From assembly GCA_947561395.2 (NCBI GenBank), contig OX387184.1, positions 28,510,766-28,574,765 of the forward strand: a DNA stretch of 64,000 bases. The letters are read 5' to 3'. Position numbers and translations under genes: made by a program. Below are positions 6,206 to 64,000 of the stretch, piece by piece. The DNA is from Buxus sempervirens. Lineage: Eukaryota > Streptophyta > Magnoliopsida > Buxales > Buxaceae. The stretch's first letter is position 1. The number at the start of each line of letters is the position of its first letter. Under the pieces are notes generated by a model, which saw only the letters and a list, made by a program, of their open reading frames with translations, had not been told where the DNA came from and did no database searches.

Positions 6206-8289
6206 TGTCACATCCCGTAATTTTACATTAATTTAAGGGAAAGATAAAACAAACATCAACTAATCTTTATAGGTACTCACTTTCCCACGTTAGGATAGTT
6301 GGCTAACTAACATATAACAGAATATTGCAACAGAAGTAAGATAGGCTATGCAACTAAGATAGAAAATAAAAACATTCCACACTAATCCATCTTACAATTA
6401 TTATAGTACAAGGTTTGTTTATCTAAATCAAGACCCCTTTATAAAGGTCAATGTCTTCTCATTTCTCTCTGGAATCTACTAGATGATGACTCTCTCTTCA
6501 ATTCCTGACCTGTAATATAAAAAAGAATCATGAGCTCACAACCAATATAATGATACAAACAGAAATCAATCCATATACATTGATGAGGTCATCGATTAAA
6601 ATAGAATTACTACATACACATTACAATAATCATGAATAAAACCAACTCCAATCTCATCAAAGATAATACAACACTCATGATAATTCATAATAAATCAATC
6701 AATTACAAAATGCATGAACAATGTAATAACCATACACACACCATAGCTGAAATGATGGTAGACAAGACATATTTCCCCCTAAAATCCTCGAAGGGCAACA
6801 GTCCACTCTCCCTTCATCTAAATTGGTAGTATATGACTAATGATCAACTCAACCAACTGGGAGAAGACTCACTAGATGGAAGCACAGTGTTAGAGAACAC
6901 TCACCACCCCTATGTGGCCACTCATAGGGTTTAGCGTATCTCAACCCAAGGATACCTTTTTAATTCCACTTCTATTTTCAAGTTACCACGAGCATCATCC
7001 ATATGGAGCCATATCCTGGCATCGAAGATTAGAAACATACTCCTCTATAGGGTCATCTCGAAATCCATTACATTAGATGATGCATGATAATTAAGTAAGC
7101 ATAAAAAAGATTCAACTATTATAAACAAAATAATTATTTCACAATCACTATACTAGAATACCATTCTTAATTTGACGTCTTACATTCATATTATTTCCAC
7201 CATTAACTTTCAATGGTTAGTTGTTATTAGTTGAAAGCTAAGAATTCATTTCATCCTTACAGTTTTATGCACATTTGAATCATAATTTCTAATGCCATAA
7301 CATCTTAATCTATTCCCGTCTATATCACCGTCTAAATTCACATTAAACTACATAACCTTTGATGTCACTAGCTATGGTGTGCTGTCGATAGAATTATAGC
7401 ATTTCATAAGATTTTGAGTGTAAAATCTTGATAAATCATAACTTTTTGTGACTTACAGCATGTCATATTGGGGCTTACGTCTTGCTGACAGTGGCTATGG
7501 CATGCTGTTCACGCCCGTACGGTGTAAAACCCAAAAACAGGGTTTCTTAGGGTTGTTCAAAACCCTTCCCATTTTTCCTTCCATTTCCTTCATTCTAAGT
7601 CATTCAAATTCATTCGGAAGTGTAAGGTTATACCATTACCATGCATTTCAACTCATAAAAGTCCTCTAATCCTGACTAGGCATCATTTCCCACTTTACGA
7701 TACAAATACTAAGAACAAAACATGGTATAAACTATACATAAACTCAATATGCTAATTTATAGTTTCCTTACATGCAAAACCATCACTGAGAAGACTCAGA
7801 ACAATACTTTATTCATAAGACCCATCAAAGGCTAATCATACAAATGGTAGATTTAACAGAATACAATTCACATACATATTAGTGAAGCTTCTTTTACTTC
7901 TCAAGCCTCGATTCTCTCTTCCTCTTCTTCCTTTCTCCTTCTTCTTTTTTCTTCCTCCAGCTACTGCCCCCTTTCATCTCCACAACAGTAAGACCAATGA
8001 GTTTTGTGCTCCCCTCACCTCCTTTGATTGGAAACAAGTGGAGCCTCGTAGCATTAGCACCTTCAACATCAACACCACTTGCGCTATTTGGAACGTGGAG
8101 AGGGCGGTAGTCAAGACACAGCTGATCGCCCATGATATAAGGAGGTCTACGACATCGCCTGAGGTGAGGTTGGGGTTTTCGTTTCCGTCTCCTCTGTTGG
8201 CTCTATTAAGATCTTTAATTTGAGAGATAAGGAGCATTCCACCATTATTTATGAGATTTCTGACACTATTGCTCAGATTGGCTTGCAAG
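6206..8289. other. Intergenic; possible old LTR fragment at the left end
   Basis: TGTCACATCCCGTAATTTTAC at 6206 looks like a gypsy LTR edge, but I could not find the opposite end or a TSD. An open frame at 7882-8223 (113 codons, hydrophobic N-terminus) has no family signature. A further open stretch at about 8218-8290 continues after the MITE, so the MITE may have hit a transcribed or formerly coding region. No product is assigned. Confidence 0.35.
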
Positions 8290-25612: not shown

Positions 25613-25807
25613 GATCCAAACCGAACTGAATTTGCAATTCAGTTTGGGTTGGGTTGGATTATGGGTTTTCCATTTATGATTGGTTCAGTTTACAGTTTGA
25701 GAACTTCAGTTCCAATGTCGGATCTATTCGATTTTGGGTCTATCATTAGTAACTTCGATTTGGTCTTGGGTTGAGGCCAACCCAGACCAAACCACACCGA
25801 GTTGTAG
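25613..25807 (-). mobile_element. Terminal fragment of the same hAT family as the 9.7-kb element
   Basis: Read on the minus strand, the edge (about 25807) gives a diverged TAGNGCTNCAACTCGG terminus, then GGTTTGGTCTGGGTTGGCCT and CAACCCAAGACCAAA as in the left end of the hAT at 38276. The fragment continues into an imperfect palindrome with TTTGCAATTC that also occurs at about 40870-40880. About 195 bp match. The other terminus and a TSD were not found. Confidence 0.75.
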
Positions 25808-25818
25808 CACTACACATA

Positions 25819-37980: not shown

Positions 37981-38040
37981 TGCTGTTTGGTAACGTTTTT
38001 GCATTTTTCAAAACAATCAAATAAAAATTAATTTTTAGTG

Positions 38041-38175
38041 ATACTTTTTTCAAAATAATTAAAATTCAGTCATGACTTTTAACTTTTAGAATACTTTTTT
38101 AAAATAATTAAATTTTAATAACATTTTATTATTACAAACCAATCATTCCAAAAATGCTCTTATACCAGTCACTCA
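38041..38175 (+). repeat. Left arm of an older palindromic (foldback) element split by the hAT
   Basis: The reverse complement of this segment matches about 47961-48130 beyond the other end of the hAT, sharing GGTTTGTAATA, AAAAGTTAAAAGT, TTTTAATTATTTT and AAGTATCACTAAAA. Before the hAT arrived the two arms lay about 120 bp apart, as in a foldback MITE. The outer ends and TSD are not clear. Confidence 0.8.
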
Positions 38176-38394
38176 CATGACTTGTACAAATCAATAAATG
38201 ACTTGGACTTTTATCAATAAAATTGCTTGTACAAGTTATTTATTAGCTTGTACAAACCATTTGAGTTGTATAAGTTAGGGCTGCAACTCGGTGCGGTTTG
38301 GTTCGGGTTGGCCTCAACCCAAGACCAAACCAAAGTTATTGATGGTCGGTTCAGAACCGAACCGAACCGACCTCAAAACCGAACAACCCAAACC

Positions 38395-40808
38395 TGTGAG
38401 ACATGGATTCGTCATCTCGGATGACTTCCGATTATCGTCACGCGGGGATCGATAAAAATAAGAGTCGCCACCATCCATTTTAAGGTGTGAATGGACACCA
38501 AAGGGTTCATAGATGTCAAATAGAGCCAAAGTAGCTCTAATACAAGAAAAATCCAGAGATTGGGTACGAGGAATTATTTATGAGCGGGGGAAGGTGTTAG
38601 GCACCCCCACTCATCCGTCTAAGACGGTTACCATATGCTTGCTCATGCTAAGAATTATTTTTCTAACAAAATGGACAAAAGGATGCTTACAACAAGCACC
38701 ATGTATGTGATCATTCCACATGAGAAGTCTAATGAACTTAGGCTCTCTTTGTGGATTCATCACTTCTAAAACCTCATGAGTGAAGTGAAATCAAGGTAAA
38801 AAATGAAGAAAATCAAGCCAAGGCAAATCAGGAGAAATTGGGTCAAAAGAGCTTGAAAACTTTGATAACCCATAACTCATTAAATTTAAATCCAAATCAA
38901 ATGAAACCAAAGCCATTTGAAAACTGATACATATTAGAATATATAGTAGAAAATTCAGCTCAATCCGATTCAAAACAAAAGAGAAATCCACATATGAAAT
39001 CTGCTGTTATAACTCAGAAAAAGTGTTAAGTAGGCATTTTCAAAGCTCTATTCGTGGAGTTTGGCTCAATAAAAATCCATGAAAATTGGTATGAAGGAAG
39101 CATGTAGTGCCATCTTTCCAAAGAAAAAGACCTCACATCAATCTCTATCCGGATGTGACTTATGTGCTCTCTTGAACAGGCCTAAAAGACCACAGATGAG
39201 CTCTGGACCATGCCAGCGAGCACCTCTGAGTCAACTGAGCACCCAAGGCACAAAACAGATTGAAATCTGCTGAAATCAGTTGGAAATGAAAATATACTTC
39301 TCAAAGAAAACTCAGAAACTGGAATCATAGGAAACGGATTAAAACTGAGCAAATAGTGCACCATCAAAGCGGCAAGTTCAGCAATCTGGGCTGAACTGTC
39401 TTACAAACTTTGAAGAGATGGTGTCAAAATTTGGCTACATGGAAGTGGACGAAAATTTCCAGATATTAAGTAGACACATCCATCTACCACATGTCTTTGG
39501 AATCACTCAAAAATTCATCCGGAGGATGAAGTTATGAGTCTTCCAAGACAGGCCACAGATCTGTCCTGTTTTGAGGTTTTTTGAAGAGGAAACAAGGAAA
39601 CCAGTGCATGTGTGCATGTGGATTCGACCAAAACCTCAAAATCAACAAAAAACCTTCTCATGAAGTTCTAAAACTCATTCTAAGGCCAATGATCTCAAAT
39701 TTTCCATATTTACATGGAAATCCAAGATCTAGCCTATTTTGATAAAAATGGTGGAAAGTGGGTGTGAAGATGTGGAAAATCACATTTTCTATGAGAAAGT
39801 TAGAATCCATGGCTATTGAGAGCATGGATTCACATCTTCTCCAAATACAAAATAAACTCAGAGAAGCATTCAAGGGTTCAAAATAACCATATAGCATGCT
39901 TTTCATCATTTGAGGGTTCTAAACCTAGAGGATCCATTCCACCTTCCTTTTCCCCAGGCTCTCTCTTCACGTTTTACGGCTAGAGAGGATTCCCAGGTAC
40001 TTTAGAAGGGGTTTGGGGTTGCAAACAACACAAGGTGGTCTTATACTACAGAAAGGTAGAAGATGAGAGATTTGCTAGAACTTAAAAAGGAAGCAATAAC
40101 TCAAATAGGCCTTACCTTAGTAGCTTGAACAGTTGAGTAGCCAATCCAGCAGAGGTTCTCCTTCTTCTTGCAGAGCTTCTAAGCTTCAGATTGTCAGCCA
40201 TTTGCAAGAGGAGGACCCCTCTATTTATAGGCCAAGTCAAGGGTAGAAGAGTCCCAAGGGTAGGCCAAAAAGGCCTTCTAGATTATTCCAATTCTCCTCC
40301 AAGGCTTGAATTGGAGTAATTCAGCAAGTTTCGGAGGGTGAAATAGGGAGTTTAAGTCCCTAAGAGAGAGGTAATATGTGTAAATAAGGCTCAGGGATCG
40401 AGCCATTTCGCAAATCCCCGAAACAGCCAAAACCATATACTCAGTGCGGTTCTACACAACCGCCACTCAAGTGCGGTTTATGTATAAATTTGACCAAACC
40501 GCATATACAGGGCGGTTCAATTCAGTTATGCTTTAATTGATTGCTGTCCACGCGGCTTAACGGCCGAAGCTTCGCGAAGCCACGTGGCCGCCAGCGCAAC
40601 AAGCATGGACCTGAACCGTGTTGAGTGTGCGGTTGCAACCGCACATACAGAGCGGTTGAAACCGAGATTATAAAAACCGCATATTCAGTACGGTTGGCAC
40701 TGATTCTGAAAGTTTTTGAAAGTTTGACATATGTCAAGGCTCAAATAAGACATTTAAAGCTCATCTTAGTTAATCTCTTATATTGGGGTGCAATTTGGGG
40801 TGTCTACA
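38395..40808 (-). mobile_element. Solo LTR (Tat-like gypsy) nested in the hAT left end
   Basis: On the minus strand it starts TGTAGACACCCCAAATTGC at 40808 and its plus-strand left edge is TGTGAGACATGG at 38395. AAACC flanks both sides (38390-38394, 40809-40813), and hAT subterminal sequence resumes directly after 40813. No coding domain is present. It has GAGTCGCCACC 67 bp inside its left edge and a minus-strand TATA box at 40221-40230. The start resembles that of the LTR at 16945, but most of the body looks different. Confidence 0.92.
40221..40696 (-). promoter_or_regulatory. TATA box and upstream palindrome array of the nested LTR
   Basis: On the minus strand CTATAAATAG (40221-40230) is preceded, about 200 bp upstream, by a cluster of five imperfect dyads of the AACCGCA...GTGCGGTT type at about 40430, 40458, 40495, 40637 and 40674. 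The same dyad type precedes the TATA box of the LTR at 16945, though at closer range. Confidence 0.65.
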
Positions 40809-41089
40809 AAACCGAAATCGAACTGATTTTTTATATAAAACCCGAAACCCAACCCAAACCGAACCGAAATTTGCAATTCGGTTCGGTTTCGGGTTTTTTT
40901 ATTTATAAAATATTAAAATTAAATAACAATGAAACAATATCTACCAGTGTCAGATAAAAAAGGAAGAAATTCCATGTTTCAGTTGGCTTCAACCTTTTAC
41001 TTCATGTTCAGTTCAGTGTATAAAGCTTAACTAGTACATAATAGAAGAGTGCCTCTGATGTGCCCCATCAAAAGCTTATAACAGGATTA

Positions 41090-41411
41090 CTAAGAAGTAG
41101 ATTGCAGATTGTTGGACTCTTGCTGCTGTTTCCACTGGGCAGAGGTCAGTGCTTTCTTTATTGAAAGTGCATGGATGTGCTTCATCTCCTCCACCAATGC
41201 AGAATTTACCAGCCTATGCCTCTCGAGCAATCTTTTCCCTTCAAATTGGTCTGACACAATCTCAATCTCAAAGCTCGCTCCACACCTAGTAACACAAATT
41301 TTTATTTGAAGTTAAAAATGCACAAATGTGAGGGAACTCTGCTAAGTCCACCAAAGTAGAAATAAAATCTATCTAATAAAAGAATTACCCCCCAGATGTA
41401 TCAGTTACTAC
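41090..41411 (-). pseudogene. BOLA2: Captured exons of a BolA-like gene (BOLA2 type), 5' part missing
   Basis: On the minus strand two exons with proper splice signals are visible. A 23-bp exon (41411-41389) lies between TTTTCAG and GTAATT, and a last exon (41285-41090) follows a CTAG acceptor; the intron is 103 bp. Together they encode a segment containing TDTSGGCGASFEIEIVS, FEGKRLLERHRLVN, EEMKHIHALSIKKAL and QWKQQQ, ending in a natural stop. This is the C-terminal three quarters of the small BolA fold, which works with monothiol glutaredoxins in iron-sulfur handling. The conserved Cys-Gly and the RHR histidine are present and the frame is undamaged. The start exon was not found inside the element. 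Retained introns point to DNA-level capture rather than reverse transcription. Confidence 0.85.
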
Positions 41412-43508
41412 CTGAAAAGGATGAAAATTCAAGTCAATTTAGTCGGGATGTAAAATATGGTAACATAAGCGTGGGTCAAACAAATTAAAGACCCAAAAGG
41501 AAAAAAAAAATTGGTCAATGACAAACTGGAAACAATTAGCCATGCAATAACTTAATAAATCACACAGACAGTGTACTCAATCCGAACCAATAATATCGAC
41601 CAATCATCAGCAATTAAGCAACAATGATCCAAGTAAGCTTTGGTTTACCTTCATATTAATGAAATCCTATCCCAGCTGAAATGTAAAGAAACCCATCCAG
41701 AAGAAAATCCGAGGAGTGATCCATATAGCCTACAATTGTATTTTCCCATCTGTATCAATTTGTGCCACCCAGTTTACCTTTGTTTTAGTTCTTGTGGGCC
41801 CTTTTGGTACTTCTTCCCAAAAGGAGAATCAATTCCTTCAAAATCTTATGAAGTTCTCGGTAAAAAACTGCTTCAGATGAACAAATAACACTTGTTAAAT
41901 GCACATTTAAGAACCTATTTTGGGTTAAGAAGACAAAAAGCAGAAAATGGGTCTCATGAAACAGCATGAATATGAGATAATATCATAAAAAATATCACCA
42001 TAAGTAACCAAACCAATTCATTCAAAAGCAATTTATAAAATCAGAGGACTGACTACACTGATGGAATCAGTGTTTGAATGATGCCATTAATTTTGAATAG
42101 TTTCTTGTAAGTGTTTACTAAATGCTTAATGTAACCGGCTAAAGAGATTTTGGGGATAGAAATCACTTTGGGGCCCAAGGAACAAATGCAAACAAACTTT
42201 TAGCATTTTATCATACTGCCATACCAGAAAGGATAAGCTAGTTCCAGCAAGTACTAACCAATACTTAAAAACCATGCTAATGTAGAACAAACAAGAAAGG
42301 CAATATCAGATGCAAAAATAGCTAAGATAAGAAAAGCCACAACAAAGGTAAAGCAAAGGAATGATAGTTCAGATGTTTTGAGAAAGTAAGACAAAGATCT
42401 ATGGAGGATTTTGAGTAAAAGGTGGAGATGGTGCATATTGAAGTATCTAGTAGGACGTGGAGGAAGGAAAAGAATCCGGTGGAGTTCATAAAAAATATGA
42501 ACTAACACAATTAACAAGATGACTATTTCCGAACCTGTTATCTGATAGCCTATACGTGACCTGCTTCCATAGAGAGCCACCTTTACCTCCCATAAAAGAA
42601 AAACGTGCTCTTTTCTGCAAGTACATAAAAGAAGTTATATCATAGTGACTTTCAATTCAAAAATGAATAGAAGAAAAAATGATTTCACCCATGAAAGGGA
42701 GAAAAGAAAAGAAAAGCTTATCCCTTTATGTGGAGTAATATCCATTGAAATATTTACCCGTGACATGCTTAGAACATAGAAATTTGTGATCTCAAATTGA
42801 GAAACTCGCAAACCAAGCTAAGAACTCCTGCCAAAACAGTAAATTCAAAAGCTTAATGAAAGAAAATTCAGTAACAACTAATAAATGTGGAACGAGATGT
42901 TACAGAACAGATGAGTTTAAAGCATCTATGAGAAGAGCGATGTACCTGATCCTGGAAGATAGTAAGATCTTATAGTGTATAGTATACCATGAAATGATGA
43001 GCTAACATAATCATAGGGGAACTCATAATCCAGCAGGATTAATAGAGACGTAAAAAGTAAAAAGAACCACAAAGTACCAATGTTTTTAACAAATTACAAA
43101 AGGGAGAGAAAGAAAAAACTAAAAATAGTCTATTACAAAGCCAAATTACCCAAAAAGTCAATACATAAATAGTAACCATCAGTCAGTAAAATCCTAAAAG
43201 AGATAGGGAAAAAAAGCCCCCAGTGCAATTCCAATAATCTTCAATGTACTTGACACCTGAAAAATATTTAATAAAGATTAAAATTAAAACCATTAGCATA
43301 AATAGTAACCAATAAATAATGAAAAAAGACAAGAACCTTTAAGATCTATTTACCTCAAGCATAAATTATTGAGAAGCGCCTAAAATGGATTCACTAACAA
43401 TGACAGGCTCCTCTGTTATAGCTGAAAAATATAGAGAATAAATTATAATACATAAAAATAACTATACTAAAATAACAAACAAGCATGCAATAGGTGGTAT
43501 GAAAAATT

Positions 43509-45550
43509 TCACTTACTTGATTCAGCTTCTTTAAGCTCTTCTAAGCTTTCCTCAATCTCGATAGGGGTTGGAGAAGCCCTTAACCAGTCTTGCAAACAAA
43601 TCAAGCATTCCACAACCTTTGGAGTCAATGAACTATGAAATTGGTCAAGTACACGACCTCCTATACTAAATGCAGACTCTGAAGCTACTGTTGATACTAG
43701 AATTGCCAAAACATCACGTGCTATATGAGAAAGCACACGAAACTTTGAACTATTCATTTTCCACCAATATAAAATATCAAAGCCAGGATCATCTTTCTCA
43801 ACACTCTCTTCCAAATATCTATCCAATTCAGATTTTGATTGAATGACCTCTTCTTCTTCCAAGTGTTTGTAAAACTCATTTTGAAGAGTTTTTATTTGGA
43901 CAGATGCATCAGGAATAAGTTGTTCAACATTCATCACATCAACATCTTGGCTTGCATTGTTTGAAGGCACATCTGGTGGACTAGTTGAATCAAGTACTTG
44001 ATAATGTTTGAACATACGATCCATTGCTTCTTTAACCTTTTCAATCAATTCTATAACCTTCTCAACAGAAGAAACTTTTGCATAACAAAACCTCACATAC
44101 TTCAACTTATATCTAGGGTCCAACACAACTGCAAACAATAGCATCATATTTACTTTGTCAGTGTTTCCCCAATACTTATCAAACTTTCTTTCATCTTCAT
44201 TGCCATATCAGATAAGCAAATATCATCACACTTTGCCCATTGAACCAAAAGATTTTCAATCCCACAAACTTCATGAAAATAAGAATTTGAAGTTACGTAT
44301 AATGACCCCGACAAACGCTTTGTAATACTGTAGAAACACTTGAGAAACTTACATAAGACATTTGCTTTTTTCCAATCATCTTCACTTGGAGGTCCATCCT
44401 TCAAATCATTCATAAAACGGAAATCATCTTCTTCAAGACGCTCAAAAGCCTTCTAAAATTTTAACGTAGCTTCCAACATAAAGTAGGTAGAACTCCACCT
44501 TGTTGGAACATCTAAACATAAAAGGCTCTTGGATGTAATTTTTTCTTTTTCAACACACCTCTTGAATTGTTGTTGCCTTCCCGGTGAACTCCTTATATAT
44601 CTCACTGCCCCACGGATTCGAGAAATAGAATTCTTCACTTCATTTATTCCATCTTTCACAATCAAATTCAATATATGAGCAGCACATCTCATATGAAAGA
44701 ATTCCCCATCCAAAATCAAACCATTCTTTTTACAAAACCTTCTTTTCAAACTTCTAACTGCCACGTCATTAGAAGAAGCATTGTCAACAGTAAGGGTGCA
44801 TAATCTTTCTATGTCCCACCGTATTAAACACGATTCTACAGCCTTTCCAATATCTTCCCCGCTATGACTATCAATTACACAAAAGTTGATGATCCTTTTC
44901 TGCAACTTCCAATCCTTATCAATATAATGCGCTGTAAGACACATATATGACAGATTTTGTATTGAAGTCCATAAATCTATTGTCAAGCAAACCCTTTGCT
45001 TAGACTTCACCAAAAATTCCTTTAACTTCTGTTTCTTGTGAATATACAACTCCAAGCAATCTTTTGTCACAGTAGTACGTGACACTAGATTGAACTTAGG
45101 TTGCAAAACATTACAAAATGCACGAAATCCTTCACGCTCAACAAATCTAAATGGTAGCTCATCAACAATTATCATGTTAACAAGAGCCTTTCGACATTGC
45201 TCTTGATCAAATTTCCAATTAGTTAAGACAACCTCCCCTTCTTGTCCCAATGACGAAAATAATAAAAGCTTTTGATTCTTATTCTTCTGACTATACAGAT
45301 ACTTCGGGCATTTATCTAAATGTTTATAAAGGGTGATAGTTCCATTAATACTTGAGCATGAGTATTCATTATGAGAATAGTTGCATGTTGCCCTTTCAGA
45401 TTTCCCCCCACTTATTCTTTTCAACTTAGTAAAATGCTCCCAAACTACTGATCTTCCTTTATATGGCCTTTTAGCACTCGATGACACCAAGGAAGCTGCC
45501 GTAGTTTCAGCATTTTCCTCTCTAGTTTTAGTATCACCCATGCTTGACAT
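43509..45550 (-). pseudogene. hAT (Ac-like) transposase, broken by one stop and one frameshift
   Basis: The frame starts at 45550 (MSSMGDTKTREEN). Residues about 30-85 resemble a BED zinc finger, but the second Cys of the usual CxxC is Ser (CNYSHNEY), so the finger is probably defective. The catalytic region follows with LTIDLWTSIQNLSYMCLTAHYID, LTVDNASSNDVAVRSL and MRCAAHILNLIVKDG. An in-frame TAG lies at 44453-44455 and a frameshift near 44190. The C-terminal block (44147-43509) has FAVVLDPRYKLKY and the dimerisation segment VSTVASESAFSIGGRVLDQ. All three parts lie in order on one strand, so it could make at most truncated protein. It is the only transposase in this element. Confidence 0.93.
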
Positions 45551-47700
45551 CTAATCAAATAATAATGAAAAAGACAGTTCAGCATAAATTATTAAGACCA
45601 TGAAAGTGATACACATTTTACTCTCAAATCAATAAAATAACACAAATGTATCCAAATGAATTTGGGAATGCTTCAAGCACATAAAATAAATTGCCAAATG
45701 AATCTGGGAATGCTTCAAGCACATAAAATAAATTGCCAAATCAAGCATGTGCATGAAATTTTACTCCCGATTTATCTTTTAAGCTTTTGGACCTTTTGAA
45801 AAATGTTCTTATGGTGATGGTCTTGATACATGACACTATTCCATGGGAGGTTCTACAATCTATTTTTGATCTAGAACTTTGGGAAATTACAAAATGTTTT
45901 GATCCTATTTTTGAAGCTTTCGTATTATATTTGCTTTAGCTTCTTTCTTTATATTGTTCAGAAACTCAATATCAGTTTCATGCCAAACAAATATCATTCC
46001 TAATCTCACAAATATAATTAAATTGTATAATTCAAAATCTAATTGTAGGATTCAAATCAAAATAATTACTTAGTAAAGGAGATCACCAATGATTTATGGT
46101 GGCATGAGAGTTGAACTGGAAAATACCTTTTTAAAGGAGCAACCACCGCTGCCTCTAGCTTCAAAGAGGATCGATCAATATCAGCTCCCACTTCACTCGG
46201 GTCTAATCTGTGCAATTTCATACTTGTTAGACATGAACTGCTGTACTACTATATTCACTGATAGAGATTTTGTTGCTGCAATCTGGTTATAATTTATTCA
46301 TTTCCTTACTCAGAGTTTGAGGTTCCTGTATTTATTTTTAGATTGTGTTGTTTTGCTCCTATCTATCACCAAAAGTTATACATTGTTTATTCTTGAGTTT
46401 GCACTACAACCTGATTATTCTGTGATTGATTTTCTTACTATTCTTGTTGTTTGTTTGTTTTGTTTTCAACCCACAGTAGTATTCCAACAGAAATTCAATC
46501 TATCCAACTGGTGAAGAATTGAATCTAGGTCTTGAGGGTGAACAGTTAGAACTTACCAGTCACACAGGATGGTAGTTTTTATGCGTGGCTATTCTATTCT
46601 GGGCAGCAAACTCCCCTTATCATTTAATCTTTGAGTTCAGAGTTTCCAATACAATTTACTTAACACAACAAAAACTTATTCCATGCTCCTAGTAATGAAT
46701 TCCATAAATCATCAGGTCCCATATCTTCAATCTCAGATAGGACCCAAACTTGCATTACCTAAGAATGGTAACAACTCATTGACCATGAATCAGAACACTT
46801 ATACGGCTGACTTTTCAATACTCATCACATAACTTCATGTTTTTAACGAACTTTTTGTATAATTGGTTTAAAAAAATGAAGAAATTATTTTCAATTAAGA
46901 AGGAAATATCTTCCTACAACAAGTTTAGTAACCCTAGGAAGCGCTAAAGAAATCACAACCTTCCACAAACTGTAAGTTTTTAACAAACTAGGGAGATGTT
47001 TATGGTTTCTTATTTTCCTCTATCATTTCAATTTTTCGCTTCCATTCAATCGGGCTAGTAGAAATCAGATTCCTTTTAAGAAAAGTTTTAATAACAAGAA
47101 CCAGAGTAAAGAAATTTTGAAAACTCGACAGGCATTCAACGAGAACAGAAATTTCCAGAAATGTGTAAAATTGTAAACGGAACTCAGCAAGTGAAATTCA
47201 ATTCCTATGAACGGAGAATTTTAGTAAACAAAAGACAAGATTTAAGAGAAGAAACGAACCCTAGAACAAGGAAACGAACGCATGGCCAAGAAAGCTTTGA
47301 AGAACATCCACCCGCACCCACCGAGAGAGAGAGAGAGAGACAGATAGAGGTGGGTTGTCCAACTTTTCTTGTAGCATAAAATAGAATAGACGTCAAATAC
47401 AAAGCGTGACCATGAGATTTAGGGTTCACCCTGAGACAGATTGCAGCAACAAACACGATTAGGGATTTAGGGTTCCGCTGAGAGAGAGGAGGCAAACATG
47501 AGCTACACGAATCGTTTTTGCTGTTCGGTGATTCATCTTCTTCTTCCAAGGTTGCTGTTCGGCTAAGAGAGAGGAGGCAAACCAGCAAACACAATTAGGG
47601 ATTTAGGGTTTGGGAGAGGGATTCGTTCAATTTAAGAGAGGGCGACTTTGTAATATGGTAAAACTTTAAGGGGTAAAGGTAATAGGTATATATATATAAT
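45551..47700. other. hAT region upstream of the transposase start
   Basis: No gene is supported here. A GA tract (about 47322-47342) sits in a purine-rich region that on the minus strand would be a pyrimidine-rich leader, so the transposase promoter may lie near 47400-47650. Two plus-strand frames (46089-46292, 46317-46514) have no family motif. Confidence 0.45.
45652..45735. repeat. Two tandem copies of a 42-bp unit in the hAT
   Basis: CCAAATGAATTTGGGAATGC at 45652 and CCAAATGAATCTGGGAATGC at 45694 start two nearly identical units just upstream of the transposase start on the minus strand. Confidence 0.85.
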
Positions 47701-47719
47701 TATATCAAAATATGTATTG

Positions 47720-47940
47720 TCGGTTTAGTTCGGTTCGGTTCGGTTCGGTTTAAAGAAATATATACTTTCGGTTCGGTTCGGTTTACCCGACTATACAACC
47801 CAAAACCGAACCGATTTAATTCGGTTTTAGGATTTGGAAACCAAAACCAAAACATGCATATAAAAAACCGAACCAAACCTACCCGAAGTCGGTTTGGGTC
47901 GGTTCAGGTTCGGTTTTACCCAGACCAAGTTGCAGCCCTA
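47720..47940. promoter_or_regulatory. Right subterminal repeats of the hAT
   Basis: Tandem GGTTCGGTTC words at 47727-47750 and 47768-47785, and inverted AACCGAACC forms further on, fill the last 220 bp. Such subterminal arrays are transposase binding sites in Ac-like elements. Their role here is inferred. Confidence 0.7.
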
Positions 47941-47960
47941 GTATAAGTCATTTTATTGAC

Positions 47961-48130
47961 TTGTACAACCCATTTGAATGAGTGGTATAAGGGCATTTTT
48001 GAAAGAGTTGGTTTGTAATAGTAATATGTCACTAAAATTCAATCATTTTGATAAAATGTTTCTTAAAAGTTAAAAGTTAGAACATTGCTGACTGTATTTT
48101 AATTATTTTCAAAAAGTATCACTAAAATTA
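47961..48130 (-). repeat. Right arm of the foldback element split by the hAT
   Basis: It is the inverted counterpart of 38041-38175, beginning 20 bp outside the hAT. Beyond it, 48131-48240 is AT-rich. A separate direct repeat, CAAAACCCCTCCTAGATTCT, occurs near 48244 and 48312. Confidence 0.8.
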
Positions 48131-48599
48131 ATTTTCCCTTTCAATTAATTCAAATCAATTACTATTTTAAAATTTTATAAAATTGTGTTTGAAAACAATT
48201 AAAATCTGATTTCTTATAAAACTCGTCCTTAAACGCAATGAAACAAAACCCCTCCTAGATTCTACATTTCAAAAACTAAAAGCGTCAACCAAGAAGAAGA
48301 TCGAAAGCAAAACAAAACCCCTCCTAGATTCTGCATTATCTTTTCAATGAGATTGAGAGGTTGCCGGATGGTCAAAAAAGAAAAACAATCATGGATAGCA
48401 AAGACAATTGAAAGAGAAAGAAGAAAATCTCTGGAGAAAAGCCAAGATCTGGGAAGTCTTGATAGTGATGTGACTTTGTTTCGCCATAATTGAACGCTGG
48501 GTGGGAAGGTGAGGAAACATGTTGAGGTCGCCGGAGAGTGGAGAGTGTATCAATACAAAAAAGCAGGGAGCGAGCCGAACCAGGAATTTTGAAAAATTA
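48131..48599. other. Intergenic stretch between foldback arm and gypsy LTR
   Basis: The only structure seen is the 20-bp direct repeat at a spacing of about 68 bp noted for 48244 and 48312. No gene is supported. Confidence 0.5.
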
Positions 48600-48916: not shown

Positions 48917-49980
48917 ATGGTTGATGGTACTAGATTGTCCAACATGAATGATGCCATCCTTCAATTAAAGGAAACGACAAATGAGCATCGACGATTGTTT
49001 ACTGGACTTCAAGATGAATTCAAGGCACAACGGGAGGAGTCTAAAGCACAAAGAGAGGTTCTTCATGAAGTGCTCAGAAATTTGAATGCCATGGGATAAC
49101 AACGAGGTGAAAGTTCGATGGCAGGGTCTGTGAATTGAAGGAATGAGAATTTAGATCCGGATTTTGGACGAGAAGTGAGTCACGGGATAGAAACCCGATA
49201 TACTCGATTAAATTTTCCATGTTTTGATGGATCGGAACCTTTAGGGTGGATTTATCGGGCAGAAAAATTCTTTAACCTCCATCAAACACCAAACTCATAG
49301 AAACTAGTGGTGGCATCATTTCACCATGAAGGAAAAGCCCTACAATGGTTACGTTGGATGGAGAACAATGGAGCAAACACTAATTGGTTTGATTTTACCG
49401 TGCTATGGAAGTGAGGTTTTGGTCCCAACGACTTCAAAGATCCAACAAACATGCTAACTAAACTAAGAAACAACAACAGTAGAAGATTATGAGACAAAAT
49501 TTTAAGCCTTAGCCAATCGAGTAGATGGCTTGAGTAGCTTTGCAAAGATTAGTTGTTTTGTTGCAGGTTTAAAGTAGGAGATCAAGTTCATGATTCAAAT
49601 GCTCAAACCTACTACTCTTTTTGCTTCAATAGGTCTAGCCCGACTATAGGAGGAACGAGTGTCTTTTCAAAGACATCAACCTCGACAAGAGCAATCAAGA
49701 ACTACTAATACAGGAAATGATACATGGCCTACAACAATTCCGATTAAGAGAGTCACACAAGCAAAGATGAAAGAAAGGAAGGAGAGAGGTTGATGAACAA
49801 GAAGTTACCACGGAGGTAGACCCCACGCCCAAGATTTCATTGAATGCAATTATTGGCATGTCTGCTCCTCAAACGATGAGGGTTAAGGGGATTTTGGGAA
49901 AGAAGCCTATCATGGTATTGATTGATACATGCAATACTCATAATTTCTTAAGTCCATCTTGTGCGCGCATCTTTGGGAAC
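48917..49980 (+). pseudogene. Gypsy gag and start of protease, broken and truncated
   Basis: After the primer site a frame starts MVDGTRLSNMNDAI and contains a coiled-coil-like run (QLKETTNEH to KAQREESKAQREV). After stops and frameshifts, capsid phrases follow (LNFPCFDGSEPLGWIYRAEKFF, HHEGKALQWLRWM). The protease start reads MRVKGILGKKPIMVLIDTCNTHNFLS at about 49877-49953. The active-site Asp is kept, but the glycine of the D-S/T-G triad is Cys, so it is inactive. The frame is cut at about 49982 by Tat LTR C. The LIDxxxTHNFLS style suggests a chromovirus-like gypsy, which is tentative. Confidence 0.85.
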
Positions 49981-49982
49981 CC

Positions 49983-51808
49983 TGCACCGCGGGGGGGGCA
50001 CAGGCGTTCGTGCCTCCTAAAGAGTAAATCGGGAAATCTAAGTAGCCACTACTTGATGGGGTGCAAGCAGACACCTGGGTGCCTAAGTTTGTCTATTTAG
50101 ATGATCTACGGCTTGAGATTCTAGTTAAGGTCTCAATTACGATCCGAGGAAGTCCTAAGACACTCCAGTCCGCCCCGTTGGTTGACGGGTCCCTTGGGTC
50201 TCCCTGGTTCGAGTCAACTCCATCTAACTTACCCTATTCCTAAGCCAAATATGCACACTTTTAAGCCTTGTGGGGACCACCTGCATGGTGTGGGTTCCAT
50301 TTATTTGATTTTATCTTGCTTTATTTAAGTGATCTGGGTCTGATTGGGTGGGTCCCGTTGGAAGGCCCATGGATTTCCTGGTGGGCTAAGCTTAGCCCAC
50401 ATGTCCCTTTACTAGGCCTTGATCTAACCCTAGAAGGCCCTTTAGAGTTTTGGTAAATTGGATTGATTTTACTTTAAGTCCAAGTGCAGAGATAATTAAA
50501 GCTTATTCATGGTGGGCCTGGATGGTTTGTGGGCCCCACAGTGGTTGCCATATAACTTAATTTATCTTTGTTAAGTTATTTCCAAATGGGCTAGGCATGG
50601 GCTCGGGACCCATGTCCTAGGCTTGGGATTGAAAACCCAAGGCTTCTCGAGTTAGGGCTTTGGGTCATTTGCCTTGTTTGGTAATTGGGCTAAGTGGGCC
50701 CAATAGGCCCAAGCCGGCAATCACGGCCAAACCATGCTTAAACTATCCAGCAAATTCCAGATTGGGCTTTTGGTGGGCCTAGAATGGTGTGGCCCACTTA
50801 ATTGGTTTGACTGTCTTATTTAGATCCAAATATGTCCATTGGGCTTTGTGGGCCCCCGTTGGAAGGCCCACAATGAATCGAATTGGACCGATGGGTCCAA
50901 GGCCCACATTGGGCTTCCGGTTGACTCGAAAACTCTGCTAGGTTATCTGGTTCAATTAAAACAAGCTAAAAAAGACAAGGGGGCTGAAAATTGGGAATTT
51001 GGATTTTCTGGGGGTGTATTTGAAATGATTTTTCGGATACAAAGAAAAATAAGCTGATCCAACTTGAGTTGTCGAATCAACCTAAAAAAGGCTTTTTTCA
51101 AGTTTTTTAAGTGGGCTTGGGTTCTGCGTTTGCTCAAGGGTTTTGGTTACTATGTGGGCCCCTGTGTGGACCCATTGTGGTTCAGAGAAAGGGGGAATCC
51201 CCCATTTTTGGTCTCTTTTGGGACTTTGGCATCAAGGGAGAGGGGAGAAGGCTTGGGACTTTGCCTTCTCCCATTTGAACCATTTCTAGGAATGAAACAA
51301 GGACCTAAGTGTCCCTGTTTAGGTTACATGAAAGTCGTCTCCATCTCTCTATGTAGAGAGAAGAAGAAAGAGGCCCGGTAGGCCAAGCCTTGGTCAACTT
51401 TCAGCCAAACCACACACATCCATTCAATAATCAGCAACTCAATCATGCCAACAAATTATATGGAACATGAAACATGAGGAAACAGTGGGTAAGAACAGTA
51501 TTCATGTGTGTGGGTGCTCAAATGCACATGCTTCCCAAGATGCTATCATGAAGGTACCTACTAATGAGGGGGCTAGCATGCTTCCTAACATGGCATATAT
51601 GGGCTGAGCTTGATGTATTTGGGGTGAGGGAGCATGCTGAAAATATTAGCCATTGGAGAGGAAAAGGGACATGCTAGTGACACCAAACAGCAACTAAATG
51701 AATGGGGGGATGGATCATGGCATGTGAGCTATTATGTATGGACATACTTAGAGTGTGTGAGCATGAGATAAAGAGAGGGACGTGGGGAGGAGGAGCATGC
51801 ACCTCAAA

Positions 51809-53733: not shown

Positions 53734-56700
53734 TGTGCGCGCCTGAAAAACGGTCGCATTGGTAGAAAACGGGAAATCGGAGTCGCCACCGCCTGATGGG
53801 GTGCAGGCGGACACCTGGGTGCCTAATCTTATCTATTGGTTTGGTCTGCGGCTTGAGATTCTGAGGCAGGTCTCGGTTGCGGTCTGGGGAAGTCCGTAGA
53901 CACCCCAGTCCGCCCCATCGAATGACGGGTCCCGTGGGTTCCCTGGTCTGAGTCAACTTTCTATTTGGTTCTCACCCGATTCCTAATCCAGCATGCCATT
54001 TAGTTAGGTCTTGGCGGGACCACCTAAGTGGTGTGGGTCCCTTTAGTTGATTTTATCTTGCTTTACTTAGGTGATCTGGGTCTGATTGGGTGGGCCCCGT
54101 TGGAAGGTCCACGATGTCCTTGGTGGGCTTGAGTAAGCCCATGTACCCATGTGGGCCTCTGTCTAAGCCTAGGAGGCCCTGTGGGCTTAGGTGAAATGAA
54201 TTGATTTTATATTAAGGTTTAAGTTTGGAACTTAAGTAATTTTCATGTCAGAAGTGAGTCGGCATTGGTTTGCGGGCCCCTGGGTGGGCCCCCATGTGGG
54301 TTGCCAAGAAAAGGTTTAACTTATCTTGCTTATATTGGCCAAAATGAATTGGACATCGGGCTTGGGGCTTGCAGTCCAAATTTGGGCTTGAAAGCCCGGT
54401 TCCTTGAGGTTTAGGGTTTGCACCCTTCTTAGGTTTAGTTAATGGGCCTTGGCGGGCCCGATAGGCCCTTACCCGGAGTCTCGGCCAAACCACACAATTC
54501 AAATATCATTCCACAAAACAAGTCCGGGTGGACCGCATTGGGTTTGGTCCATCCGGTTTTATTGGTTAAGTTTACTCAACTTGTTTAATTGCATGCTTTT
54601 GGGTTTATTGGGCTTGGTGGGCCCCGTTGGAAGGCCCACTAATGTGCCAAATTGGACCGGTGGTCCATGCCCCGAGTTGGGTTTCCGGATGATCCAGAAA
54701 CCCTGTAGGTTTGTTTGGCTTGATTGTAAACATCAAAAGAAATGCAACCAAAACAGGAAAATAAGAAAGCCATACGTGCATACATGGATGTAAGCAAAAC
54801 AAAGCAAAAGCAAAGTGAACATGCTAAGACAAAAGGGGAAGAACAGCAGCTAAGCTTGGGGACTAGCATGCTTGTCATACTTGGGGATGACATACAAGGA
54901 GGTGTGGGTGAGGGGAGCATACTCATTGCATGACAGTCATAGGGCTGCCCTGGAGGTACACGGGCACTTGGTCATGCATGCTGGAAAGTGGGGGAGTGGC
55001 AGCAAGGTGTCTTGGGGGAAACGGGGGGCATGGCATGCAACTTAAACCCTTTTAAGAACAAGGAACAATGGGGGCTGTAGCTGCTGCCAGCAGCAGCCCC
55101 AAAAAGGTCTACATGCTTACCAATTTGTCATAAAAAAATAGTAAAAAAACACATGTTGCATATTCATGAGAAACTAACAAAAAAAAAAAAAACCACCGTA
55201 AACGGGAGGACAGCAACTATTACATTGAGCTTGGTGAGGCTTGTCTTGCTACCGAGGATGGGAAGCGCTGCTGCTGCCTCCAGCAGCAGCTCATGCATAC
55301 CATGACTATGGGTTAGGGGTAGTGGGAGCATGCTTACATATGTATGCCCAGAAAAAAACAGCAAGTGACAACGACAAGGTTAGTGCACCTAGTCGGCAGC
55401 ACACTTGGTTTTATATAAAAACAGCAGCTATTCATAGGGTGGAGGTGTACATGATGATCATGCTATCAAGGAAACAAGCCATACGAACACAAATGGAGAA
55501 AATGCATGCTGTAAAATAATAATAAGAAAGGGAACAGCAATTATAAATGGGGTTGGAGACATGCTTAACATGTTGGAAATAACACAAAGTGGTGTGGAGG
55601 AGGGGGATCCTTCATGCATGGGGTTAGGATACTAAACTAGGGAGTGTGGGTGGTTGAACCTGCCGAAAACAGCAGCTGTCCAAGGATTTTAGGCATGATA
55701 AAAAAACAGCATGTATAAAGGGGGAAGAGGCCATGCTTGTACATACTCACATACACCATAAATGAGCACACAAAAATGAGAAAGGATGAAAACCGTACAA
55801 CACAAAAAAAAACAGTAGGAGAAGGGATAGAGGGGCTTATAGAGGGGGGTACATGAGAGTGGATGTTAGGGGGAACATTCTCCCCACTTAATGGATGAAA
55901 ATGCTGCTGGAACCCAAAATAAAGAGAAGAAAACAGCATATTTAAACTACATGATCTTCTCTCTCTCACATTAAACCTCCGGGGACTTACCTATCTCACC
56001 ATGGAAGAAGCATAACCCATGGAGAGCACGGATAAGCAATCAAATAGAGTGAAAACCCATGCCTCATTCAAAGAACAACCCCCCAACAACATGAGGAACT
56101 CATATGCTTCAAATGAACCGGAATTTATATATGTTAAAAAGAAACCTACTAGAAAGCTTACCTTTGAGTTTACAAGTGGTTTCTGAGGTGGGCTTCAACC
56201 TCCCTTGAGCATGGATGGAGTTGGAGCACCTCTTTGCAATCCCCACAGCAACTAACCTCCTTGGTCTTCTTTTTTGAGTAAAAAAAATGAGGAAGATGGG
56301 GAGGAGAGGAGCTTGAGATAGGTTTTTCTTTTAGTGTCTTGGGAAGAAATGAAGAGAGATTTTCTTTTCTGTTGGAGGAGACGAATGGGAGAGATGGAGA
56401 GGGTGGGAGAGCTTGGGAGAGAATGGGGAAAGAAGGGGTTCGAAATGGTGGTCCCTCATTGTGTTGGAAATAAAATGGTTTTTATACCATGGGAGATGAA
56501 GGGTTGCATGGGGAAGTGAAGAGACTCATTGGGGAGGTGGATGGTTGCCATGTGGAGAGGAAAGGTTGGGGGAGGTCAAGGGTTAGGAGGTGCCACGTGT
56601 GCAGCCCATATTGTGTCCACGTGGCATCCTATGTGGAGCCCCCATGCGCACACGTGGCATCCTATGTGGCATTGCCAAAAATCCAGAAATGCCCCTAGCT

Positions 56701-63064: not shown

Positions 63065-64000
63065 TGTGCCCGCGTCGGAAACGCGGCACGAGGAAAATTC
63101 GGAGTCGCCACCGCCTGATGGGTTGCAGGCGGACACCTAGGTGCCTAATCTTGTCTATTAGGGCTTTTGGTCTACGGCTTTGAGATTCTAAGTAGGGTCT
63201 CGGTTGCGATCCGGGGAAGTCCGTAGACACCCCGGTCCACCCTGTCGGGTGACAGGTCCCTTAGGTTTATCCTGGTTTGAGTCAGCTTACATTGGTCTCA
63301 CCCGATTCCTAATCCGATATGCAGTTTGGTTAAGTCTGGCGGGACTACCTGGGTGGTGTGGGTCCCTTTAATTGCTTTTATCTTGATTACTTAGGTGATC
63401 TGAGTCTGGTTGGGTGGGCCCCGTTGGAAGGCCCACGGTATCCTTGGTGGGCTTAGTCAAGCCCGTGTGCCCTTGTGGGCCTCGGCCTATCCTAGGAGGC
63501 CCTTTGGGCTTTGGTTGATGCATTGATTTTACTTTAGGTTCAGTTTTAAAGATTAAGTGTTTTTCATGCACAAGTGGGCCGGACTGGTTTGTGGGCCCCT
63601 TAGGTGGGCCCACATGGTGGCCAAGTAATTTTTATTGGATTTATCCTTTTAATCTGCCAAAGTGAGTTGGACACTAGGCTTGGGGCCCATAGTCCAAACC
63701 TGGGCTTGTAAGCCCAAATTACCAGAAGTTAGGGTTTGCACCCTTCCTTGGTTCGGTTGGTGGGCTTTGGTGGGCCCGGTAAGCCCTTGCCCTTGGTCTC
63801 GGCCAAACCACGCATTTCATGCATCAATTTCACTGATTTGGTTCGGGTGGACCGCCTTAGGTTTGGCCCGCCTTGTTTAATCAGTTAATTTTACTTATCT
63901 TGATTAAGTTGCATGCATACATGTTTATTGGGCCGGGTGGGCCCCGTTGGAAGGCCCATTGGAAATCAAGTTGGACCGGGGGTCCAAGTCCCACATTGGG
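63065..64000 (-). mobile_element. Tat-type long LTR, copy D (cut by window edge)
   Basis: The plus-strand left edge is TGTGCCCGCG, followed by GAGTCGCCACC (63102-63112) and the shared TGATGGGTTGCAGGCGGACA. It continues past 64000. It is more diverged from copy A than copy B is. Because no primer site follows it on the minus strand, it may belong to a further nested element or a solo LTR rather than being the 5' LTR of the B element. Confidence 0.8.

Follow-up and report, generated by a model that had tools for sequence, protein, structure and literature searches.

A hAT transposon family in Buxus sempervirens that has probably copied and spread part of a host BolA2 gene, with further cargo suggestive of gap repair

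Introduction

Transposons of the hAT superfamily that carry pieces of host genes are already known. Elements of the grapevine family Hatvine-6 share terminal inverted repeats (TIRs) and a similar transposase, and have a variable interior that includes host exons and introns as well as non-genic sequence (PMC2528002). The maize elements Ds2 and Ds-l4 have hAT ends around filler DNA that is partly derived from genes, introns included, and repair of excision breaks has been suggested as its cause (PMC3260210). Here we describe a BolA-bearing hAT family in Buxus sempervirens that adds a stepwise record, with donors, to these cases. Its starting point is a 64,000-nucleotide stretch of contig OX387184.1 (“the window”; C4:28510766-28574765 in our numbering, where other loci are given as contig and position) within a searched genome of 676.5 Mb. 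An initial annotation of the window had recognized a hAT element with captured exons of a BolA-like host gene.

How cut-and-paste transposons acquire host genes was described as not known by Du et al. in 2011 (PMC3260210), who cite suggested replication errors during the repair of excision breaks. Gisby and Catoni favor the fusion of neighboring insertions (PMC8903248), and a 2026 review states that an undiscovered capture mechanism may exist (PMC13317346). We take these positions from the accessible text of each source. The same text of Du et al. agrees with the initial annotation that capture is less common in hAT elements; nonetheless, such captures had already been reported in Hatvine-6, whose members have a transposase sequence in common. 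A literature search for BolA, transposon and “captured gene” together returned only a mushroom genome paper, which we judged unrelated from its search entry.

Results

The element in the window spans positions 38276-47940 and, at 9665 bp, lies at the top of the size range of its copies. It ends in 13-bp TIRs, TAGGGCTGCAACT on the left and its complement on the right, and an exact 8-bp target-site duplication (TSD), GTATAAGT, stands on both flanks. The matching termini and identical duplication of the initial annotation are therefore genuine, and short TIRs with an 8-bp TSD are the marks of the hAT superfamily. The sense strand of both the transposase and the BolA sequence is the minus strand (Table 1). 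It had also been proposed that everything inside the element moved or was acquired together. This is incorrect, because a solo long terminal repeat (LTR) nested in the element is flanked by a separate 5-bp duplication, AAACC, and inserted later. All ten other hAT copies described below are free of an insert at this position.

The BolA content of the window consists of the end of intron 1, a 23-bp micro-exon, a 103-bp intron, exon 3 with its natural stop, and 3ʹ untranslated region (UTR). The product of exon 3 matches the Pfam BolA family (E 5.2e-17), and the best solved-structure match is Arabidopsis BolA2, At5g09830 (E 2.5e-24); together, these matches rule out chance resemblance. A complete parent gene lies at C4:16.550-16.557 Mb, on the same contig and ~12 Mb from the window. 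Its exons of 63, 23 and 196 bp encode 93 codons plus the stop, and only two of the 196 bases of exon 3 differ in the window copy. Capture from a host BolA gene, as initially proposed, is thus supported by a second, complete locus, and the donor is still present elsewhere in the genome, as expected for transduplication. Retention of intron sequence rules out capture as cDNA. The initial annotation was right that the start exon is missing: the match begins inside intron 1, so that the fragment lacks both the start exon and the complete BolA domain of a functional gene. Its description of the two exons holds for the micro-exon, the intron and the stop, but overstates the splice signals, since the micro-exon donor has lost the G at +5 (GTAATT, as against GTAAGT in the parent). 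The captured piece stops ~100 bp short of the point where similarity between the parent and a BolA retropseudogene ends, which we take to be the poly(A) region. This retropseudogene, at C8:16.949 Mb, has exon 1 joined directly to the micro-exon, and also has an in-frame stop; the join provides independent support for the 23-bp exon and its splice. The retropseudogene also serves as an outgroup for the BolA copies. Further BolA-domain loci, distinct from the BolA2 parent, are at C14:775908-776144, C1:53544008-53544220 and C9:3918412-3918546.

Searching the genome with a 322-bp query gave 14 matches. One is the window, ten are further hAT copies, two are the parent and the retropseudogene, and the last matches BolA exon 3 over 38 bp, at C1:44692155-44692192; near it, 126 bp match, in inverted orientation, sequence that lies downstream of the parent gene. 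BolA exon sequence is therefore present in 11 hAT copies, the window counted. Two further hAT elements, C3:4.85 and C8:9.81 (positions in Mb), hold the end of the BolA 3ʹ UTR only, and both have exact TSDs. Both element ends were found in 10 of the 11 exon-bearing copies; for the copy at C19:17.18, the 5ʹ end was sought in 16 kb and not found. These ten both-ended copies are 1816 to 9665 bp long, and their TSDs are exact 8-bp duplications in eight cases and imperfect in two. Since the 5ʹ end, the BolA piece and the 3ʹ end occur together again elsewhere in the genome, in most cases flanked by a TSD of the copy's own, the two ends in the window belong to one element. The initial annotation had considered that they might instead belong to different elements flanking a native BolA gene. 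That arrangement has virtually no chance of being correct: nothing was found in its favor, identical ends and cargo are seen at independent insertion sites that have TSDs of their own, and no hAT end match was found in the 16 kb compared around the complete parent.

The initial annotation had also called for a search for family members with and without the exons. Wider searches gave 1516 and 939 first-look candidates, the latter being 3ʹ ends, and 40 of each were scored. Thirteen of the 40 scored 3ʹ ends carry the BolA UTR and 27 do not; four of the UTR-free ends were read (C21:2.72, C4:48.7, C10:36.68 and C14:2.35), and the rest of the 27 were judged by the borders of their matches. Candidates C21:2.72 and C4:48.7 were rejected as UTR carriers when reading their sequence showed no BolA UTR. 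The element at C10:36.68 has both family ends and no BolA sequence; its TSD is not clear.

The copies share features that point to a common origin of the BolA piece. The right-hand junction, from BolA UTR to hAT end, is common to all 11 exon-bearing copies, as is an inserted A that is absent from the parent and the retropseudogene. The four copies that keep the micro-exon all have the donor deletion (GTAATT) and an 18-bp gap in the intron. The left border of the BolA piece varies, falling at element positions of about 6226, 6575, 6639, 6663 and 6712, and at about 6880-6900 in the two UTR-only elements. BolA was apparently captured once and then amplified with the element, amplification being the other mark of transduplication. 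We base this on the shared junction and indels, not on a tree. A single capture, after which the interior was replaced time and again from the left side, would explain both the common right junction and the inward-moving left border.

BolA is not the only cargo. In the window, the BolA piece abuts a 0.77-kb intron fragment of a sigma-70-type gene, with a 3-bp overlap (TCC) and no remnant of a terminal repeat at the junction. The donor on C12 is an intron, and the exons on either side of it read as sigma-70 region 2 (Sigma70_r2): the downstream exon matches with an E of 1.2e-11, and the upstream exon with 0.059, which is under the curated cut-off, yet it matches the adjoining profile positions. 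A 58-bp piece matching a third locus, on C11, follows. Four sister copies (C21:18.75, C21:31.92, C19:17.18 and C3:5.32) contain exons and introns of PPDK, which lie upstream of BolA exon 3 on the same strand in the PPDK-bearing copies; the PPDK donor, at C22:26.92 Mb, is 97% identical over 2220 bp. The UTR-only element C3:4.85 carries HECT and BRX exons. Across part of its interior (L048:5410-7440), the donors alternate C11-C4-C11-C8-C11 at 97–99% identity, and 3 to 39 bases separate the matched pieces. An open frame elsewhere in this element (L048:1360-1737) gave nothing in Pfam; by eye, it resembles exon 1 of a plant D-type cyclin gene.

The two UTR-only elements form a before-and-after pair. 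They are ~99% identical over shared blocks, and part of the transposase interior is deleted in C8:9.81. Where C3:4.85 has a piece from C8:13.06, C8:9.81 spans the site: out of 91 bases of the C11 donor, 82 align to C8:9.81, and all are identical. Exact restoration of donor sequence by loss is implausible, and the C8:13.06 piece was therefore most likely gained in C3:4.85 after its split from C8:9.81.

How did pieces of unlinked genes come to lie side by side inside the element? Abutting pieces from unlinked loci, retained introns, the tiny overlap between the sigma-factor and BolA pieces, and the lack of internal terminal repeats at the junctions read all suggest template switching, and we infer from the patchwork of unlinked donors that it occurred in gap repair after excision. 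In the Pack-TYPE model, the BolA and other pieces would instead have entered by fusion of two neighboring hAT insertions that then moved as one with the DNA between them. Fusion has been proposed for all Pack-TYPE superfamilies, hAT included (PMC8903248, accessible text), and it likewise leaves both ends intact with the cargo inside. We nonetheless consider it unlikely here. Where the C12 intron abuts the C4 BolA piece, the two overlap by 3 bp and there is no internal terminal repeat. In C3:4.85, pieces from three contigs alternate, and cargo already in place was the site at which one of them was gained.

The initial annotation described the element as still carrying its transposase. Pieces in the window do encode a BED finger, an RNase-H fold and a hAT dimerization domain, but the gene is broken by one in-frame TAG and one frameshift, so the window copy is not autonomous. 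An uninterrupted 680-amino-acid open reading frame (ORF) is present in the sister elements C3:5.32 and C3:4.85, and an intact sister ORF has the same set of domains; the lineage may therefore have been active recently. The transposase region is absent from eight of the ten both-ended exon-bearing copies; the window copy and C3:5.32 retain sequence from it. The eight fit the definition of Pack-hATs, i.e. non-autonomous elements without transposase sequence, and the window copy does not. Other transposase-bearing relatives are located at C1:12.47 and C9:10.29.

Compared with the consensus of the hAT copies, their exon 3 sequences show 22 distinct single-base changes: 12 non-synonymous, nine synonymous, and one counted as a stop, which is half of a two-base change from CAG to TGG. 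Nine synonymous changes compare with 6.0 expected (P 0.10), and neutrality is not rejected. Most likely, the BolA exons are carried along as passengers with no protein function, because they lack a start exon, have a weakened micro-exon donor, and show a pattern of change indistinguishable from neutral. If they were functional, they might encode a chimeric or truncated BolA protein, or lend the transposase transcript splice sites or a 3ʹ end. In favor of this, whatever each of the 11 copies retains of the BolA-derived part of exon 3 is free of stops and frameshifts, and the synonymous changes are slightly above expectation. Furthermore, in C21:18.75 (PPDK at L019:3577-5331) splicing BolA exon 3 to the last PPDK exon captured whole would preserve the reading frame, as is expected by chance one time in three. 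Against function, in addition to the missing start exon and the weakened donor, there is a TGA just upstream of the BolA part in C3:5.32, the synonymous excess reaches a P of 0.10 only, eight of the ten both-ended copies lack the transposase region, and the captured piece ends before the presumed poly(A) region. A function is thus very unlikely. We consider it equally improbable that small RNAs from the hAT copies silence the parent BolA2: the near-identity of exon 3 and the number of copies would allow it, whereas the parent keeps its open frame.

The hAT element is itself inserted within an older inverted-repeat element that resembles a miniature inverted-repeat transposable element (MITE). 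Elsewhere in the window, positions 25717-25812 are an 80% inverted match to the hAT end at 38276-38371, and a pattern search there for a terminal repeat of the hAT type found none. Four repeats (1-903, 50041-50944, 53766-54711 and 63096-64000) are ~70–91% alike and may be LTRs or related sequences. By eye, an open frame near 49771-50100 resembles a retroelement protease. An Rfam scan of the window gave nothing at gathering scores.

Table 1. Positions of the hAT element, its cargo and its surroundings in the window
Feature	Position	Strand	Remarks
hAT element	38276..47940	-	
Target-site duplication, left copy	38268..38275	.	GTATAAGT
Target-site duplication, right copy	47941..47948	.	GTATAAGT
Terminal inverted repeat, element's 3ʹ end in sense orientation	38276..38288	+	
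Terminal inverted repeat, element's 5ʹ end in sense orientation	47928..47940	-	
Captured BolA2 fragment, intron 1 end to 3ʹ UTR	40921..41715	-	94.4% to C4:16.556 Mb, 816 columns
BolA exon 3 with natural stop	41090..41285	-	Pfam BolA
BolA 23-bp micro-exon	41389..41411	-	donor GTAATT, parent GTAAGT
Sigma-70-type gene intron fragment	41713..42486	-	98% to C12:32.7505-32.7513 Mb
58-bp piece matching third locus	42488..42545	-	95% to C11:8110915-8110972
hAT transposase gene, broken	43509..45550	-	in-frame TAG, frameshift near 44180
Later nested solo LTR	38395..40808	.	2414 bp, TG..CA, AAACC duplication
Inverted-repeat (MITE-like) element, left arm	about 38024..38204	.	80% inverted match, 193 columns
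Inverted-repeat (MITE-like) element, right arm	about 47945..48135	.	

Discussion

We think it likely that a hAT family made a copy of a portion of host BolA2 and spread it, that its cargo was acquired through template switching during gap repair, and that the BolA exons are passengers. What can be read directly is the donor gene, the common 3ʹ junction of the BolA piece, dispersed copies with TSDs, a patchwork of unlinked donors, and one cargo difference that reads as a gain. In the proposed mechanism, excision would leave a gap, and repair would start from the sister chromatid. At very short homologies, the growing strand could switch to other loci, where genomic DNA would be copied with its introns before a return to the hAT element. 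The ends of the element would stay intact, allowing the product to jump again, and transposase for cargo-bearing copies could be supplied by family members with an intact ORF.

Several points weigh against this account, which comes from sequence comparison. Resolution in the exon/UTR tree is poor, and the window copy even groups with the parent (support 25); the tree is too short to give the order of copies, and does not itself show a single clade of hAT copies. The window copy and C3:5.32 diverge unequally, at 98% identity in the transposase region and 87% at the 5ʹ end, which indicates that the copies are mosaics to which no single age applies. Insertion fusion could explain some of the captures, and captures made one after another at different times could yield a patchwork with no template switch within a single repair. 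Only a small number of junctions were read at the level of single bases. Lastly, the neutrality test draws on few changes, scores them relative to a consensus instead of a tree, and carries little weight whichever way it is read.

The initial annotation understated the case: the element belongs to a family, several host loci contributed to its patchwork interior, and there are sisters with an intact transposase ORF. Tentatively, and with considerable doubt, we suggest that this lineage might be a recently or still active cargo-swapping machine, in which each excision and gap repair could patch in DNA from several unlinked genes, and some products, such as PPDK exons joined in frame to BolA exon 3, would be candidate chimeric genes.

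The function of BolA itself is probably not at stake. The Buxus family matters as a stepwise series within one genome, with recent donors (97–99% identity) and a before-and-after pair. Together, these make template switching in gap repair testable against insertion fusion through the junctions.

The comparisons that follow are with the accessible text of each report. The likeness to Hatvine-6 is close, in the shared TIRs, the similar transposase and the variable interior, and BolA is not among the cargo described there (PMC2528002). The difference is that donors, a before-and-after pair and a stepwise series of borders are identified in Buxus; we met no such series for Hatvine-6. Maize Ds2 and Ds-l4 also have gene-derived filler between hAT ends, but those carriers are non-autonomous, whereas members of the Buxus lineage keep an intact transposase ORF (PMC3260210). 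Like Pack-hATs, most both-ended Buxus copies have coding DNA between their ends and no transposase region. In contrast, the window copy and C3:5.32 hold transposase sequence, and such elements are classed in the Pack-TYPE work as autonomous or derived (PMC8903248); the Buxus patchwork also favors another route of capture. Amplification of a piece of a housekeeping gene by a hAT has been described for histone H3 in Pseudocercospora fijiensis and Pyrenophora, with a hAT domain in 277 of 471 P. fijiensis carriers and full-length elements of 9.5-9.9 kb (PMC6710886). There, a transcript or retrocopy without introns was captured; the Buxus family, in contrast, carries genomic DNA with its introns.

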